Shown one piece after another: positions 8,182-49,740 of a stretch of DNA of 64,000 bases. Source of the stretch: Chondrilla cf. caribensis (taxonomy: Eukaryota > Porifera > Demospongiae > Chondrillida > Chondrillidae); contig OZ026567.1 in the NCBI GenBank assembly GCA_964020155.1, forward strand, positions 2,635,430-2,699,429, in the 5' to 3' direction. A program made the position numbers and the translations under genes. Position 1 is the first letter of the stretch; each line of letters begins with the position of its first letter. The notes beneath the pieces were generated by a model. The model was given only the letters and a program-made list of their open reading frames with translations. It was not told the DNA's origin and searched no databases.

Positions 8182-8885
<704 letters not shown>

Positions 8886-24706: not shown

Positions 24707-26509
24707 ATGGCCGAGACGTCTGTTAAAAGAGCCACTGATGAAGATATTAATCAATATTTCCAAATTGATGCTCTAACAAAATCAGGCAAGAAGGCACAAA
24801 CTCCAAGATGGGGATTGAAACCTATTTCTTCTCAGCGACCCCTCAGCAGTAGCCGAATGGTGTTGGCTGTCAGCAAAGGATCGTCAATTCAAGTGAGAAA
24901 CGCTGACGATTCCAAAGTTGGCAAAGTTGACCTGGCAAATAAACACACAAGAAATCAAGCACCCTTACGCGATTTGGAGAACAAGCTATCTGCCGTGAGT
25001 ATAAGTGGGACGCCTAAAGAACCTTCAGGTACTAGTAAGAAGACTCCCGGAAAAGTACTGAATAGTTCCAGTGTCGTGGACAGATTTATTCCCAGCCGAA
25101 GTAGCCAAAATATAGAACAGAGTACCTTTTTACTTTCTGGAAAAAAAGAGAAGCTCAGTCCGGGGACACAAGAGTATCAGGACTTTCTTTACTCTCACAT
25201 GACAGCCGAAAATCCACAGAGAAGAATTTTACCAATTGCTTCTTGTGATGCCAAGAGTACATCTATTCGAACTCCCCATGAGTTAGTCAGAAGTGCAAAC
25301 AGGACAACATTCAAGCCGAGTGCTCGAGACAGAAGAGTCATCCCTAGTGAAGAAGAGCAAATATTGGATGCTCCTAGGGTATTAGATGACTACTGTAAGT
25401 ACATATGTGTATGTATGTATTGTGTGGTTATTCACTGTTGTTACCCACTCTATAGACCTCAACTTGGTAGATTGGAGTCGGTCGAATGTTCTTGCAATAG
25501 CCCTTTTCGATGTTGTCTACTTATGGAATGCTGACACTGGTTCAGTTGACGAATTGTGTCAAGTTCATGGAGAAGATGCATATGTATCATCTGTTGCATG
25601 GGGTAAGGGTGGCTCTTACCTTGCTGTGGGTACCAGTGGAAATGAAGTCCACATATGGGATGTCAACAAAATGAAGCGATTGAGAGTAATGAAAGGTCAT
25701 ACATCTCGGATTGGAGCTTTGTCATGGAGGCAACATATAGTAACCAGGTTTGTTTATACTATTACATGAAAGTTATATTTGTGCCGTTAGTCAATGTCGA
25801 CTTGTTTCCTGTCTCCAGTGGCTCCAGAGATGGTTGTATCTATCATCATGACGTTCGTGCTAAGCACCACATTATTCACAATTCTGTCCATCATAAAATG
25901 GAGGTTTGTGGTCTCAAGTGGTCCAGAGATGGTGGTTATCTGGCCAGTGGAAGCAACGACAATAGTGTGTGCATATGGAGCTTTGGTTGTTTAGAAAAGC
26001 CAGTTCAGGTGCTGGAGCATGCTGCAGCTGTTAAAGGCCTTGCTTGGTGTCCTTGGCAGAACTGTGTATTGGCAACAGGAGGAGGAAGTGCAGATCAGCA
26101 TTTGCGTCTTTGGGACATACAAACAGGCAAAGAAATGAAATCTGTTAATACCGGATCACAGGTAATGAAAATCATATGAACACTTGGTTTGTGTTTTCAA
26201 GGATTTATTACTATCCATTCATCTTTATTTCAGGTAACTTCAATTATATGGTCCAAGTCTAATAGAGAAATTCTTACAAGTCATGGCCCACCATTTCATC
26301 AGTTAAGTTTGTGGAATGAAGACTTGGAAAAGTGTGCTGACATTAAAGGACACAATGGCCGAATTCTAAAAATAGTCAGAAGCCCCTGTGGTTCCCTTGT
26401 GGCGTCGCTGTCCGCTGACGAGACTCTGAGAGTGTGGAAGTGCTTCGACGTGTTGCCTGATACGAGCCAAAGTGGCATCGAATCGTTTCATGGCAGCATG
26501 ATCCGTTGA
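24707..26509 (+). CDS. CDC20: CDC20, activator of the anaphase-promoting complex
   Basis: Four exons join in phase (532 residues): 24707-25394, 25456-25747, 25819-26161 and 26234-26509. The N-terminal region carries a C-box, DRFIPSR, at residues 125-131. A seven-bladed WD40 domain follows, starting after ILDAPRVLDDYYLNLVDWS, with CDC20 signatures such as SSVAWGKGGSYLAVGTS, ATGGGSADQHLRLWDIQTG and LSADETLRVWKCF. The chain ends in Ile-Arg, the IR tail that docks on APC3/CDC27. CDC20 brings securin and cyclin B to the APC/C for ubiquitylation and is the target of the spindle checkpoint. I see no KEN box in the N-terminal region, unlike in vertebrates. The stop lies 22 bp before the selenoprotein T start codon. 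Confidence 0.97.
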
Positions 26510-30217: not shown

Positions 30218-30369
30218 ACACACACGTACACCCACATGCATACACACACGCATACACGTGCACGCATGCACACACGCAGGCACACACACATACACACACA
30301 CGTACACCCACATGCATACACACATACAAATACACACACGCATACACGTGCACGCATGCACACACGCAG

Positions 30370-30435
<66 letters not shown>

Positions 30436-30460
30436 ATACACACACACACACACGTACACC
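30146..30460. repeat. (CA)n compound microsatellite
   Basis: CA runs with ATGCATACACAC and CACGTGCACGCATGCAC spacers. The same spacer text reappears at 31310-31380, on the other side of the inserted transposon. Confidence 0.97.
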
Positions 30461-30465
30461 CACAT

Positions 30466-31308
30466 TAGTCTCGTTAACCAGACCCAGTTCCGCCTAACTT
30501 CCGATTATTCATCGGACGGCGAAACTGGGTCTGGGAAATACCTACCCCTAAACCGTTGCACGGGGGGCGGAGTCGAGCTAAGTGACAGACGTGACCGCAG
30601 TGTTATTCGTAATTTAAAAAATGGCGAGCACGGACGAAATTGAAGCGGCCCCTTTCCAAATCCTTTGATGGCCTTAATACTAGCTTTCCAGACATGAAAG
30701 ATAAGCAAGTAGATGCTGTTATAGGCGCGTTGAGTGTTAATGATGTTTTTATTAGCCTACCCACGGGCTACGGAAAAAACAATAACTGCCGTACTTCCGC
30801 AAGCTTTTGACATTCTACGCTTTGACGGTAAGAAACGTTCCATCGTCCTTAAAACAGATCTGTCACATATTCGAGCAGCAATCGGACGCCGACTCAAGCG
30901 AAGTTTCTGCTTTGTATTCTCGAGCTAATGTTGAAACGGATCTTGCCATTGCCACCAGTTCACTGTACGCTGGAGATCTCTTTACCCGTCATGGGCGGAG
31001 AGTTTGCTCGTACCGAAAGAAGAAACTTCGCTTAACTTTATTTAGAAACGTTAATACCGGAGATCACAAAGATTTCGCCACGTGGCTGTCAAGAACAACC
31101 AATTTCCCTATTAAAACGCAGTAAAGCGTAAATTTACCGTTGTGTTTATTGCTTGTCACTTTCGGCAATTAGATCACAAAGACGCTAATTGGTCCGTGTC
31201 AGACGAGGACCCGTGCAACGGTTTAGGGGTAGGTATTTCCCAGACCCAGTTTCGCCGTCCGATGAATAATCGGAAGTTAGGCGGAACTGGGTCTGGTTAA
31301 CGAGACTA
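30466..31308. mobile_element. Mutator-like transposon with 99-bp inverted ends
   Basis: The two ends (30466-30571 and 31210-31308) are inverted repeats about 99 bp long, with terminal TAGTCTCGTTAACC. A 9-bp direct repeat, CACCCACAT, flanks the element on both sides, inside a CA microsatellite that resumes afterwards. Long inverted ends with a 9-bp target duplication fit the Mutator-like superfamily. No transposase is present, only a RecQ-like helicase remnant, so it is non-autonomous. Confidence 0.8.
30620..31124 (+). pseudogene. RecQ-like helicase N-terminal fragment inside transposon
   Basis: Just inside the left inverted repeat, an ATG begins MASTDEIEAAPFQIL. Further on, DKQVDAVIGALSVNDVFIS runs into the Walker A motif LPTGYGK. 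In a shifted frame comes TITAVLPQAFDILRFDGKKRSIVL, as expected after motif I of RecQ-family DNA helicases. Stops and at least one frameshift break it. The downstream part to 31124 is open but not recognised. It may be a captured host gene piece or the decayed gene of the element itself. Confidence 0.65.
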
Positions 31309-31412
31309 CACCCACATGCATACACACATACAAATACACACACGCATACACGTGCACGCATGTACACACGCAGGCACACACACACACACGCGCGCGCGCG
31401 CGCGCGTACACA
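31309..31412. repeat. (CA)n/(CG)n microsatellite
   Basis: Continuation of the CA array interrupted by the transposon, ending in a CGCGCG run. Confidence 0.9.
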
Positions 31413-31513
31413 CACGCCCATCGGCGCTTCTTAGAGACTGTCTGGCTAGCTAGGCTAAGTTTCAGTTGCGAGTTAACGAATATGGTTACGAGTGTGTTCA
31501 CAGATGATACGCG

Positions 31514-31536
31514 ACTCTAGTCTAGCTAGCTAGACT
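31514..31536. mobile_element. minimal TAGTCT palindrome
   Basis: The perfect palindrome TAGTCTAGCTAGCTAGACTA is flanked by CGACTC on both sides. It may be the smallest relic of the TAGTCT-ended family, lying about 60 bp upstream of the Rubicon-like start codon. Confidence 0.35.
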
Positions 31537-31592
31537 AATTCGACTCAGCGACAATCGAGTGAGGTCTTCTACCTGGCCTAACACGTATCAAA

Positions 31593-34500
31593 ATGTCTGA
31601 TGTACTACAAGAAGCCTCCGAGTCTCCGTTGAGTGATGATTTACTGTACCCTGTGGAGTTTAATACCCCTGATTTCGAGAACCAGGATGAGAATAAGAAG
31701 TTACCGTGTAGGCTTCCCGACAGTAGTGTTTTCAACCAAGAAGATGGTATGGGGCGTTTTGATCCCAGAATCACCGCGGATGCTGTAGCGAATGGGGTGT
31801 CAGATATACGGAAAGTGTCAGTAGCTGATATTTTGGAGCAAGGTAACTATTCTCCCTCTCACTACAACTACAAAATCTTCAACATTGACGGAGTTCACGA
31901 CCGAGACCAAGCTACGATGCAACAAAGACCGCGTTCCCATTCTCATGACAGACTACTGAGCGAAAATAAGGCGACCGACGTAAGAGGAGACGGATACTAC
32001 GGAACCCTGCCTAAAACCGTCCCTGTTGGTGGCAGACCACAGCCTCACAGGTCATACACACAGGCTGTTCTCCCTGATGTATACAAAACAAAACCAAAGG
32101 CTAAACCTCGGAGTAGATCGAGCTTTATAGCCATGACGCACACCACTATATCAGACGAGTTACAAGAAGTAAGTTTCCCGTGTTTCTCGTTATTTTTCAC
32201 TGTTCATGTGAGGCATTTTTCTTAGGAGAATGCGTTCTTCTCAATGTCACATGCACTCATGACAGTGCTTGAAGAGTACAAAGTCTTTGTTGATGAACAG
32301 CAACTAGGGTCAGATTTATATCACCCGGTTTCACCTGGTGAAGATGACATGCCGATCCAGTCACACAATGTTGAAGAAAGTGCAGAGACAAATGCTGAAT
32401 TTGGTGTAAAAGGTAAGGTAAAATGGGGTGATTCCAATCACGGAATACTTCGATTACCAGTGAATAACTAGCACACTTAAAACGAGTGGCTGACTTTTAT
32501 GTCAGCTGTGTTGTAGACAAAGGTTACCATCACCAGTGGAACACCGCACTTGTCCTCTAAATTGTTTGGCATTTTGAAGTGGAAACCATTTTATTCACTA
32601 GTGACTGTAATTATACCATGATCGGAATTACTCCCAAATTTCTTTGTGTATGTAACATTATTGTGCTACTAAGTCTGACAGATGTGTCGGGTTTATACAG
32701 TATATTTTCATACACTTTTCTCTGCAGAATCTGCTCCAATGAGTCCCCCCTTGTACTCAGAGAACTCTTGTCTCCTCCAATTTGATCCACAGATTTATCA
32801 AGCTGGTGCACACCGATGTGCACATAAGCTTTTATCTGCTCTTTCTCGGAGCCTGAACAAAGATCTCCTTTTAACAACAGATTCCGACAATCATAACCTA
32901 TGTCTTCCAGGTACCCTGCAGTCTTTACTGCTGAAAAGCAAAGAAATCAGTGATTCTTTGGAAGAAGTGAGCAAAGCATATTTTGCAAGAGTAAACTGCA
33001 GCTATGTGTGTGTATTATGCATGCGTCCTCTGTTAGATCCGGATGAGACACGCACAGCGTGGTACTTGTGACTGGGCTCCACCAAGACAGCAAGTCCTCT
33101 TTCAAATTGAGCCCTTCAAGGAGTAAGTCAGTGGGCATAATAGTGTGATTATAGTAACTTTGTGGCTATGAGGCGTAATCGGTGGATTCCAATACAACTG
33201 TCCCACACTTACAACCACCCCTTTTTGGCAGGATGTATTGATTCTGTGATGAAGAGTATAGCAATGTAGTTATGTGTATGTCACAGTGTATCTACTTTGT
33301 GAGTATGTGCTTGTCATCACACTGCATTGTGGCTTAAATACACTGTTATTTTACATCATATGTCCTAAGGGAAGTGGTATAGTCATTTTAGTGGTAGCTG
33401 CATTAGAATGGTTTGCCACTTGGGAAGTGAGAGATGACAGTCATAATTATGTTTGTGTGTGCCAGACTCCCTGTATGGCTTCTATTTCTAATTTTCTCAT
33501 AATGAATTATATATATATATATATATATACTGTAATCAATGTGTCTACTTGAGGTGAGTGGATTTACAGCTTCTTGTCCAAAATACACACAGTACTTTGA
33601 CACATGGGACCAATACAGTATGTGAGATACTTCTATTAACATAACATAGTACATATGTATGGTTTGTATATACATTAAGATAGAAACAAGTGATTTGTTG
33701 TGATGTGCAATTGAGACAAGAAACATGAAGTAGCTCTATCAGTCCTACTGGTACAGCTACACAAGTCTGGCTGCATGGATTTGGAGTAGGAAATAATACA
33801 CCATCTGTAGGCAGTGTGTATGTTCCGTTTATTCGTAGGATATTATATGTACTAATTTGTACGCGTCTCCAATCTGTCTGGTAGATTGAAGAAGCAGATG
33901 CTGGTCCAGGAATACAGGTGTGCTGGGTGTCGTATGGAAGTGGAGCAGTCACTAGCAAAGCATTACCGTTACTGCTACTACCATGGCAAGTACTTTTGTC
34001 AGAACTGCCACTCCAACAAGAAGACTATCCTCCCTGCTCTTGTGATCCACGAATGGAGTTTCAAGCAGAAGCCTGTTTCCAATATCGCCCATGATCTGCT
34101 CATGAAGATTGAAGACATACCACACTACAACATTTCAGAACTGAACAAAGATTTATACAAGAAAGTAACGTCTCTTTCAACCATGAAGGTGCTCAGACAG
34201 CAGCTTGTTTCTGCTCGGCAATACGTTAAAACTTGTAGGCTGGCCACTGACCTCGCAGCCCGCTATGAGGAACTAGGTCACCTTGCAACTGATTGTCATG
34301 TGTATTCCCTCAATGACCTAGTCCGTCTTGAAAAAGGAGAGCTTCTACTTCAAGCACGTATAATTCTTGAGGCTTCCTTCAAGCATGTTAAGGAGTGTGA
34401 AATATGCAAGTACAAAGGCCATTACTGTGAGATATGCCAGAGAGATGGAGACATTATTTATCCCTTTGAAGCTAAACGAGTTGTACAGTGTCAGCAGTGC

Positions 34501-34599
34501 TTTGCTTGCTACCACAAGGAATGTTTCATGCAGGGCTCTGTATCTTGTCCCAAGTGTGTCAGATTAAGAGCTTGGAAATCTAGATCAGATTTGAGTTGA
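31593..34599 (+). CDS. Rubicon/Pacer-family autophagy regulator
   Basis: Five exons join in phase (600 residues): 31593-32168, 32226-32412, 32728-32966, 33037-33122 and 33885-34599. The C-terminal ~240 residues form the Rubicon homology domain, rich in Cys and His: YRCAGCRMEVE, YCYYHGKYFCQNCH, PVSNIAHDLLMKI, CEICKYKGHYCEICQ, VVQCQQCFACYHKECF and a final SCPKCVRLRAW. The conserved WAPPRQQVLFQIEP block precedes it. In animals this domain binds Rab7. Rubicon and Pacer act oppositely on the PI3K complex during autophagosome-lysosome fusion. No RUN domain is visible in the long, disordered N-terminal half, so the gene looks more like Pacer (RUBCNL) than Rubicon. Intron 2 begins with sequence resembling a MITE end. 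Confidence 0.88.
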
Positions 34600-49319: not shown

Positions 49320-49740
49320 GTGACGACGAGGGCAGCTGCTCTAGCGGTTGTAACTAGAGATTTAATCGGCGAAGTAGCGAATGATCACGGATACCAGTGC
49401 TTGATAGAAGAACCGTTTTCAGCCATTGAACATTTTGTCTCTGGAAATGTCTTTGTATCATTGCCGACTGGTTTTGGGAAGTTGCTTATTTATGGACTGT
49501 TACTGTGCTCGATCACCTTAGAGGATAGACAAGAGCAAAGTCGATTTCGTCGATTTGTATCGCCATCAGCCTCTCTCATGTTTGACCAGAAGGCACGATT
49601 TCTTCATTTGTTCTTCCACGGGCCGATTTCTAGGCGATATTCAGCTAGTCTGACGTAGCCCAGACCCTTCCGGCCTCCGTAATAAAATGGAGGCCGGAAG
49701 GGTCTGGGCTAGGTCAGACTAATATTCAGCATGATGAAGA
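49320..49740 (+). pseudogene. second RecQ-like helicase fragment
   Basis: The frame starts MTTRAAALAVVTRDLIGEV, and EEPFSAIEHFVSGNVFVSLP leads into Walker A as LPTGFGKLLIYGLL. RecQ-family proteins have GK(S/T) here, so the Ser/Thr is replaced by Leu. A 76-bp hairpin transposon is inserted at 49646, after ISRRYSA, and the TG-rich repeats begin soon after. The rest of the helicase is missing. Confidence 0.65.
49646..49721. mobile_element. 76-bp hairpin MITE with 9-bp target duplication
   Basis: Two nearly perfect inverted arms (TAGTCTGACGTAGCCCAGAC and onward) are separated by about 7 bases. The 9-bp ATATTCAGC is repeated directly on both sides. Its terminus, TAGTCT, and duplication length match the 30466-31308 element. 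Confidence 0.88.

Follow-up and report, generated by a model that had tools for sequence, protein, structure and literature searches.

Academ DNA transposons, in which a RecQ helicase has been named (2013 paper), include the AcademH lineage (Kojima 2020, Mob DNA 11:15); AcademH elements are reported to occur in animals and fungi, to have 9- or 10-bp target site duplications (TSDs) linked to their helicase (2023 paper), and to be low-copy in Basidiomycota, Ascomycota, and Mucoromycota (2024 paper). A RecQ helicase is also carried by KolobokH, which is reported solely from fungi; Kolobok elements have a 4-bp TTAA TSD, and RecQ, in those that carry it, lies either downstream of the transposase gene or on the complementary strand, as in the red-algal Kolobok-1_CCri. 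Here we describe an 843-bp element located in a 64,000-nucleotide stretch of the genome of the sponge Chondrilla cf. caribensis (contig OZ026567.1, positions 2,635,430 to 2,699,429), hereafter the window, which very probably arose by internal deletion, and is non-autonomous, from a cut-and-paste DNA transposon that encodes a RecQ-type helicase and a DUF6589 protein, the latter probably a DDE transposase, and that most likely belongs to the AcademH lineage. The initial annotation, made from the sequence alone, had regarded it as either a Mutator-like element (MULE) that had captured a piece of a RecQ gene (Pack-MULE) or a member of an undescribed family with its own RecQ-type helicase. MULEs are characterized by long inverted ends and 9-bp TSDs.

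The components of the element are listed below, with the strand of the helicase taken as plus.

30457..30465, no strand: left copy of the 9-bp TSD, CACCCACAT
30466..31308, plus strand: non-autonomous element of 843 bp, delimited by inverted ends and TSD
30466..30564, plus strand: left terminal inverted repeat (TIR), 99 bp, beginning with TAGTCTCG
30478..30534, plus strand: left-end subterminal hairpin with arms at 30478-30494 and 30518-30534
30621..31010, plus strand: frameshifted remnant of a RecQ-type helicase gene (5' part), with an approximate 3' limit set by eye
30757..30777, plus strand: Walker A stretch LPTGYGK, from the frame translation
31165..31209, plus strand: right inner end, 87% identical over 45 bp to C9:1888800-1888844
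31210..31308, minus strand: right TIR, 99 bp
31240..31296, minus strand: right-end subterminal hairpin with arms at 31240-31256 and 31280-31296
31309..31317, no strand: right copy of the 9-bp TSD, CACCCACAT

The structural observations of the initial annotation, namely, 99-bp inverted ends starting with TAGTCT, a 9-bp duplication within a microsatellite that resumes on the other side, and a Walker A-bearing RecQ-like fragment just inside the left end, were all borne out. The two 99-nucleotide arms are 100% complementary, and the TSD is identical on both sides (9 of 9 positions). The flanks, when joined, show 94.8% identity over 115 bp to positions 30269-30383, a neighboring unit of the same microsatellite array; because this match spans the junction, the unit is an empty-site paralogue, and the empty site is represented within the window itself. 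A scan of the window for 12-nucleotide TAGTCT ends, allowing up to 2 mismatches, that are bordered by duplications of 9 or 10 bp (up to 1 mismatch) detected this element and one other, and two control anchors detected none, so the pairing of such ends with a duplication exceeds chance.

The helicase remnant overlaps the frame 30613-30810, whose translation contains NDVFISLPTGYGKN with the Walker A stretch; relative to the corresponding reading from L013, a relative on contig C15, the start of the gene is out of frame in places. The window piece is 53% identical over 32 amino acids (E = 2.8e-6) to the helicase modeled in a full-length relative, element A. Pfam assigned no family to any of three short pieces from the window, so the "RecQ-like" label depends on comparison with full-length relatives. 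No remnant of a DUF6589 gene was detected within the window copy.

That the helicase is a regular part of these elements was apparent from a search of the genome (137 Mb in 37 contigs) with the helicase start as read in L013 (66 amino acids), which at E ≤ 0.1 gave 48 RecQ-like matches, 30 of which were taken as loci; because protein queries underlie the RecQ and DUF6589 counts given here, these are minimum numbers. A TAGTCT end, followed by CG, GA, GG, or AG, is found in the same orientation 118 to 348 bp upstream of the helicase in 22 of the 30 loci, compared with 1 of 30 for reversed motifs and 0 of 30 for the opposite orientation. These loci include the window copy, its twin (see below), L013, and the like pairs L048/L049 and L058/L059, so the independent cases are fewer than the count. 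Among the eight misses, L050 belongs to element D, in which the helicase lies away from the end, and L047 has its end downstream. By the initial annotation, copies whose helicase part is always a later, independent insertion would speak against it; the position of the helicase start is constant in 22 of these loci.

A query made from the core part of element A's DUF6589 protein, with which 20 of 20 first-look candidates were scored, produced 24 matches that group into seven loci, and a RecQ gene adjoins the DUF6589 gene in all seven. Full-length copies, whose search had been recommended at the outset, are represented by six relatives of 5.5 to 6.1 kb, each with both genes (gene models were built for element A only).

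Element A, C20:4039724-4045752, 6029 bp: TIR of 104 bp, TSD GCAGACCAT
Element B, C20:4619168-4625170, 6003 bp: TIR of 106 bp, no TSD
Element C, C22:511760-517697, 5938 bp: TIR of 73 bp, TSD GTGAAGGAG
Element D, C10:3251941-3258026, 6086 bp: TIR with 97.8% identity over 89 columns, TSD TGCTGATAC
Element E, C6:331432-337128, 5697 bp: TIR with 81% identity over 95 columns, TSD GACCCATCC
Element F, C6:2413792-2419329, 5538 bp: TIR of 90 bp, no TSD
Locus G, C17: 98.9% identity to element F over 5381 columns, right end not in the stretch read

The TAGTCTCG scan yielded no end pair at locus C, where self-comparison revealed TAGTCTGA ends. The helicase and DUF6589 genes are convergent in six of the seven loci; in element D (L077/L050/L078), the two genes share a strand, DUF6589 preceding RecQ at a distance of approximately 350 bp, possibly as a result of an inversion or as an older arrangement. 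At the sequence level, Walker A, DEAH, and the candidate D-D-E residues of the transposase are kept in all seven loci, and helicase motif VI is altered in element C. Pairwise identities of the RecQ and DUF6589 proteins are correlated across the six elements (r = 0.67, a value reached by 5 of 720 permutations). The RecQ genes of full-length copies share 35 to 47% identity between subfamilies, which indicates that the association of the helicase with the element is old. Among named proteins, the closest relatives of both gene products are from Ephydatia, Dysidea, and Amphimedon, with Mytilus and Branchiostoma further down. Two copies of 1010 bp each with exact 9-bp TSDs (L048 and L049) retain the 5' ends of both genes, that of the helicase at one terminus and that of DUF6589 at the opposite one. 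They show that such short copies arise by internal deletion, and we infer that the window copy was formed in the same way.

In the second protein of element A, the only family recognized by Pfam at E ≤ 0.1 is DUF6589 (PF20231), listed there as a family of unknown function; P-element, hAT, or RAG/Transib families were not found in this protein at the same threshold. The best VIA-align matches of two AlphaFold models of DUF6589 relatives are the P-element, hAT (Hermes), and RAG1/Transib transposases; Foldseek alone gave no significant match for either model, and the structural statement rests on VIA-align. By these models, DUF6589 is probably a DDE transposase with an RNase H-like fold and candidate D-D-E residues. 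These transposases differ from the present group in the Pfam result and in TSD length, which is 8 bp for P and hAT and 5 bp for Transib. The name "DUF6589" was not found in the literature searched, where matches to PF20231 look unrelated by title.

The genome search with the end, for which the left 135 bp of the element were used, gave 51 matches. One of them, C10:3003746-3004588 (L010), is identical to the window copy across all 843 bp and has no TSD, and L013 is approximately 79% identical to it over 822 aligned columns; most of the remaining two-ended copies are miniatures of 85 to 201 bp. Among 29 two-ended copies from several subfamilies, the TSD is exact at 9 bp in 18 and has one mismatch in 9 bp in 3; L015 and L013 have TSDs of 10 and 11 bp, respectively, each with one mismatch, and no TSD was found in 6 copies (L010, L014, L025, elements B and F, and L066). 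At 8 bp, every one of the 29 copies shows 4 to 8 mismatches. The duplicated sequences vary, with no fixed target sequence. These counts omit 12 of the 32 fetched loci, in which a single end tip was recognized, L032, which has an unclear right border and no TSD, and locus G, which is without its right end; L027 and L028 have common flanks and represent one insertion event counted twice, and an offset similarity at L014 was not counted as a TSD. Genome-wide, there are 205 instances of the pattern TAGTCTCG-N(2-6)-CCAGACCC, compared with 0 for the reversed control. Many miniatures of 85 to 134 bp (L016, L023, and similar copies) look like one end with a hairpin, flanked by two tips, and not like two separate ends. 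The window subfamily also has a 4.2-kb relative (L040+L074, C9:1884726-1888944) with an exact TSD, GTCTAAACC, and the segment C9:1888800-1888844, similar to the right inner end of the window copy, sits 100 bp inside its right end; another open reading frame in its middle, perhaps a later insertion, matches neither the RecQ nor the DUF6589 protein.

The second member of the group in the window is a 76-bp copy, listed here with its surroundings.

49374..49607, plus strand: RecQ-like fragment just before the 76-bp element, 36% identity, E = 1.6e-5 (C22:2684803-2685036)
49637..49645, no strand: left copy of the 9-bp TSD, ATATTCAGC
49646..49721, plus strand: near-perfect palindrome of 76 bp, whose first 33 bases are those of the ends of element C
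49722..49730, no strand: right copy of the 9-bp TSD, ATATTCAGC

The RecQ-like reading of 49374-49607 seems to continue past the 76-bp element, which seems to have been inserted inside another RecQ fragment.

Most ends of these elements contain a predicted hairpin. When folded with RNA parameters, all 15 sequences (14 ends, several of them near-identical, and the 76-bp element) had a lowest-energy fold with a stem between the CCAGACCC-type arm and a downstream partner. When the 24 upstream ends of RecQ-like loci were searched strictly (arms of 10 to 20 bases, no more than 1 to 2 mismatches), 15 had a hairpin and 9 had none. In the alignment of the 14 ends, 5 of the 10 predicted pairs are changed on both sides with the pairing kept. 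Such covariation suggests selection on the hairpin, a reading that is only suggestive because template switching can also homogenize palindromes.

Taken together, the window copy is very probably a derivative of the two-gene transposon, whose TAGTCT-starting and mostly hairpin-bearing ends enclose the RecQ-type helicase and DUF6589 genes in full-length relatives. The DUF6589 product, most likely the transposase, would recognize and cleave the ends and insert them into the target with a 9-bp stagger; as the element is excised or the gap is repaired, the helicase would open the DNA at the ends, plausibly at their hairpins; and the window copy, having retained both ends and a broken helicase start, would be mobilized in trans. 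A Pack-MULE-like capture of a piece of a host RecQ gene would fit the long inverted ends and 9-bp duplications, as well as the presence of merely a helicase fragment in the window copy. However, the constant position of the helicase start in 22 of 30 loci, the old association implied by the divergence of the RecQ genes between subfamilies, and the pairing of RecQ with DUF6589 in all seven loci indicate a regular part of the element, not a captured piece, and the second protein of element A has no MULE domain at E ≤ 0.1 (MULE profiles were not run on the genome). Gene capture by a Mutator-like element is accordingly rejected as extremely improbable. The helicase could also be accessory cargo with no role in transposition: copies of 85 to 201 bp that lack the gene have transposed and generated TSDs, which shows that it is dispensable in cis. 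Yet both genes occur together in all seven loci, with Walker A, DEAH, and the D-D-E residues kept, and we view a mere passenger as rather unlikely.

As to the affiliation of this RecQ-DUF6589 transposon, its 9-bp TSDs and helicase fit AcademH, the most likely assignment. The likeness to AcademH, as described in citing publications, comprises an element-encoded helicase and TSDs of 9 or 10 bp; the helicase and DUF6589 are separate genes here. This separation and the mostly convergent gene order, together with the covarying hairpins, the Pfam listing of DUF6589 as a family without known function, and the absence of the name "DUF6589" from the literature searched, might speak for a still unnamed superfamily distinct from AcademH. 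That alternative is distinctly unlikely, given that AcademH is reported to encode a helicase, to make TSDs of 9 or 10 bp, and to occur in animals and fungi, and that the RecQ helicase named in Academ fits as well. Of the second option in the initial annotation, the element's own helicase stood, in contrast to the term "undescribed," which probably does not apply, AcademH being already in print as a helicase-encoding lineage. KolobokH and Kolobok-1_CCri are DDD/E transposons with RecQ, as the present group probably is, and the other-strand RecQ of Kolobok-1_CCri resembles most loci here; identity with KolobokH, reported only from fungi and with a 4-bp TTAA TSD, is rejected in view of the 9-bp TSDs of varied sequence. 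Identity with the P element is likewise at odds with the TSDs: 18 copies are exact at 9 bp, and all 29 fail at 8 bp. What is added here to the known kind of element is the probable identification of DUF6589 as its transposase and the hairpins in its ends.

The surroundings of the 843-bp element contain several other features. The region 31563-34596 holds an open frame, whose probable start (31595, read by eye) is approximately 290 bp downstream of the element, and behind it an exon that encodes a Rubicon Homology Domain (PF13901, E = 9.6e-62, 33856-34596); the insertion of the element could touch a promoter if the frame and the exon form a single gene. The palindromic repeats GTCTGGCTAGCTAGGCTAA and GTCTAGCTAGCTAGACTAA at 31440-31538 resemble the tip of element F, TAGTCTAGCTAGCTAGACC; the window scan for TAGTCT ends found no end pair with a TSD there. 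Positions 8511-8885 match the left flank of the C10 twin (L010 1608-1990) with 90.6% identity over 385 columns and are apparently a separate dispersed repeat. A WD40 frame of the CDC20/Fizzy kind is located at 25646-26176 (PF24807, E = 7.3e-49; 167 bits, under the cutoff of 200).

The genome of this sponge offers two-gene copies, with element A modeled in full, beside tiny derivatives that consist of ends only, and the group accounts for most of the RecQ-like fragments examined (22 of 30 loci). For DUF6589, a Pfam family of unknown function, a function as a DDE transposase is suggested. An unlikely extension is that DUF6589 plus RecQ forms its own transposon lineage, or an AcademH branch that is clearly new, with TIRs that would act as hairpins and a co-evolved RecQ that would open them at excision; a division of labor between a transposase and a hairpin-resolving helicase was not described in the literature searched. 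The covarying hairpins provide a concrete, testable proposal for the reason that a transposon would carry a RecQ helicase.
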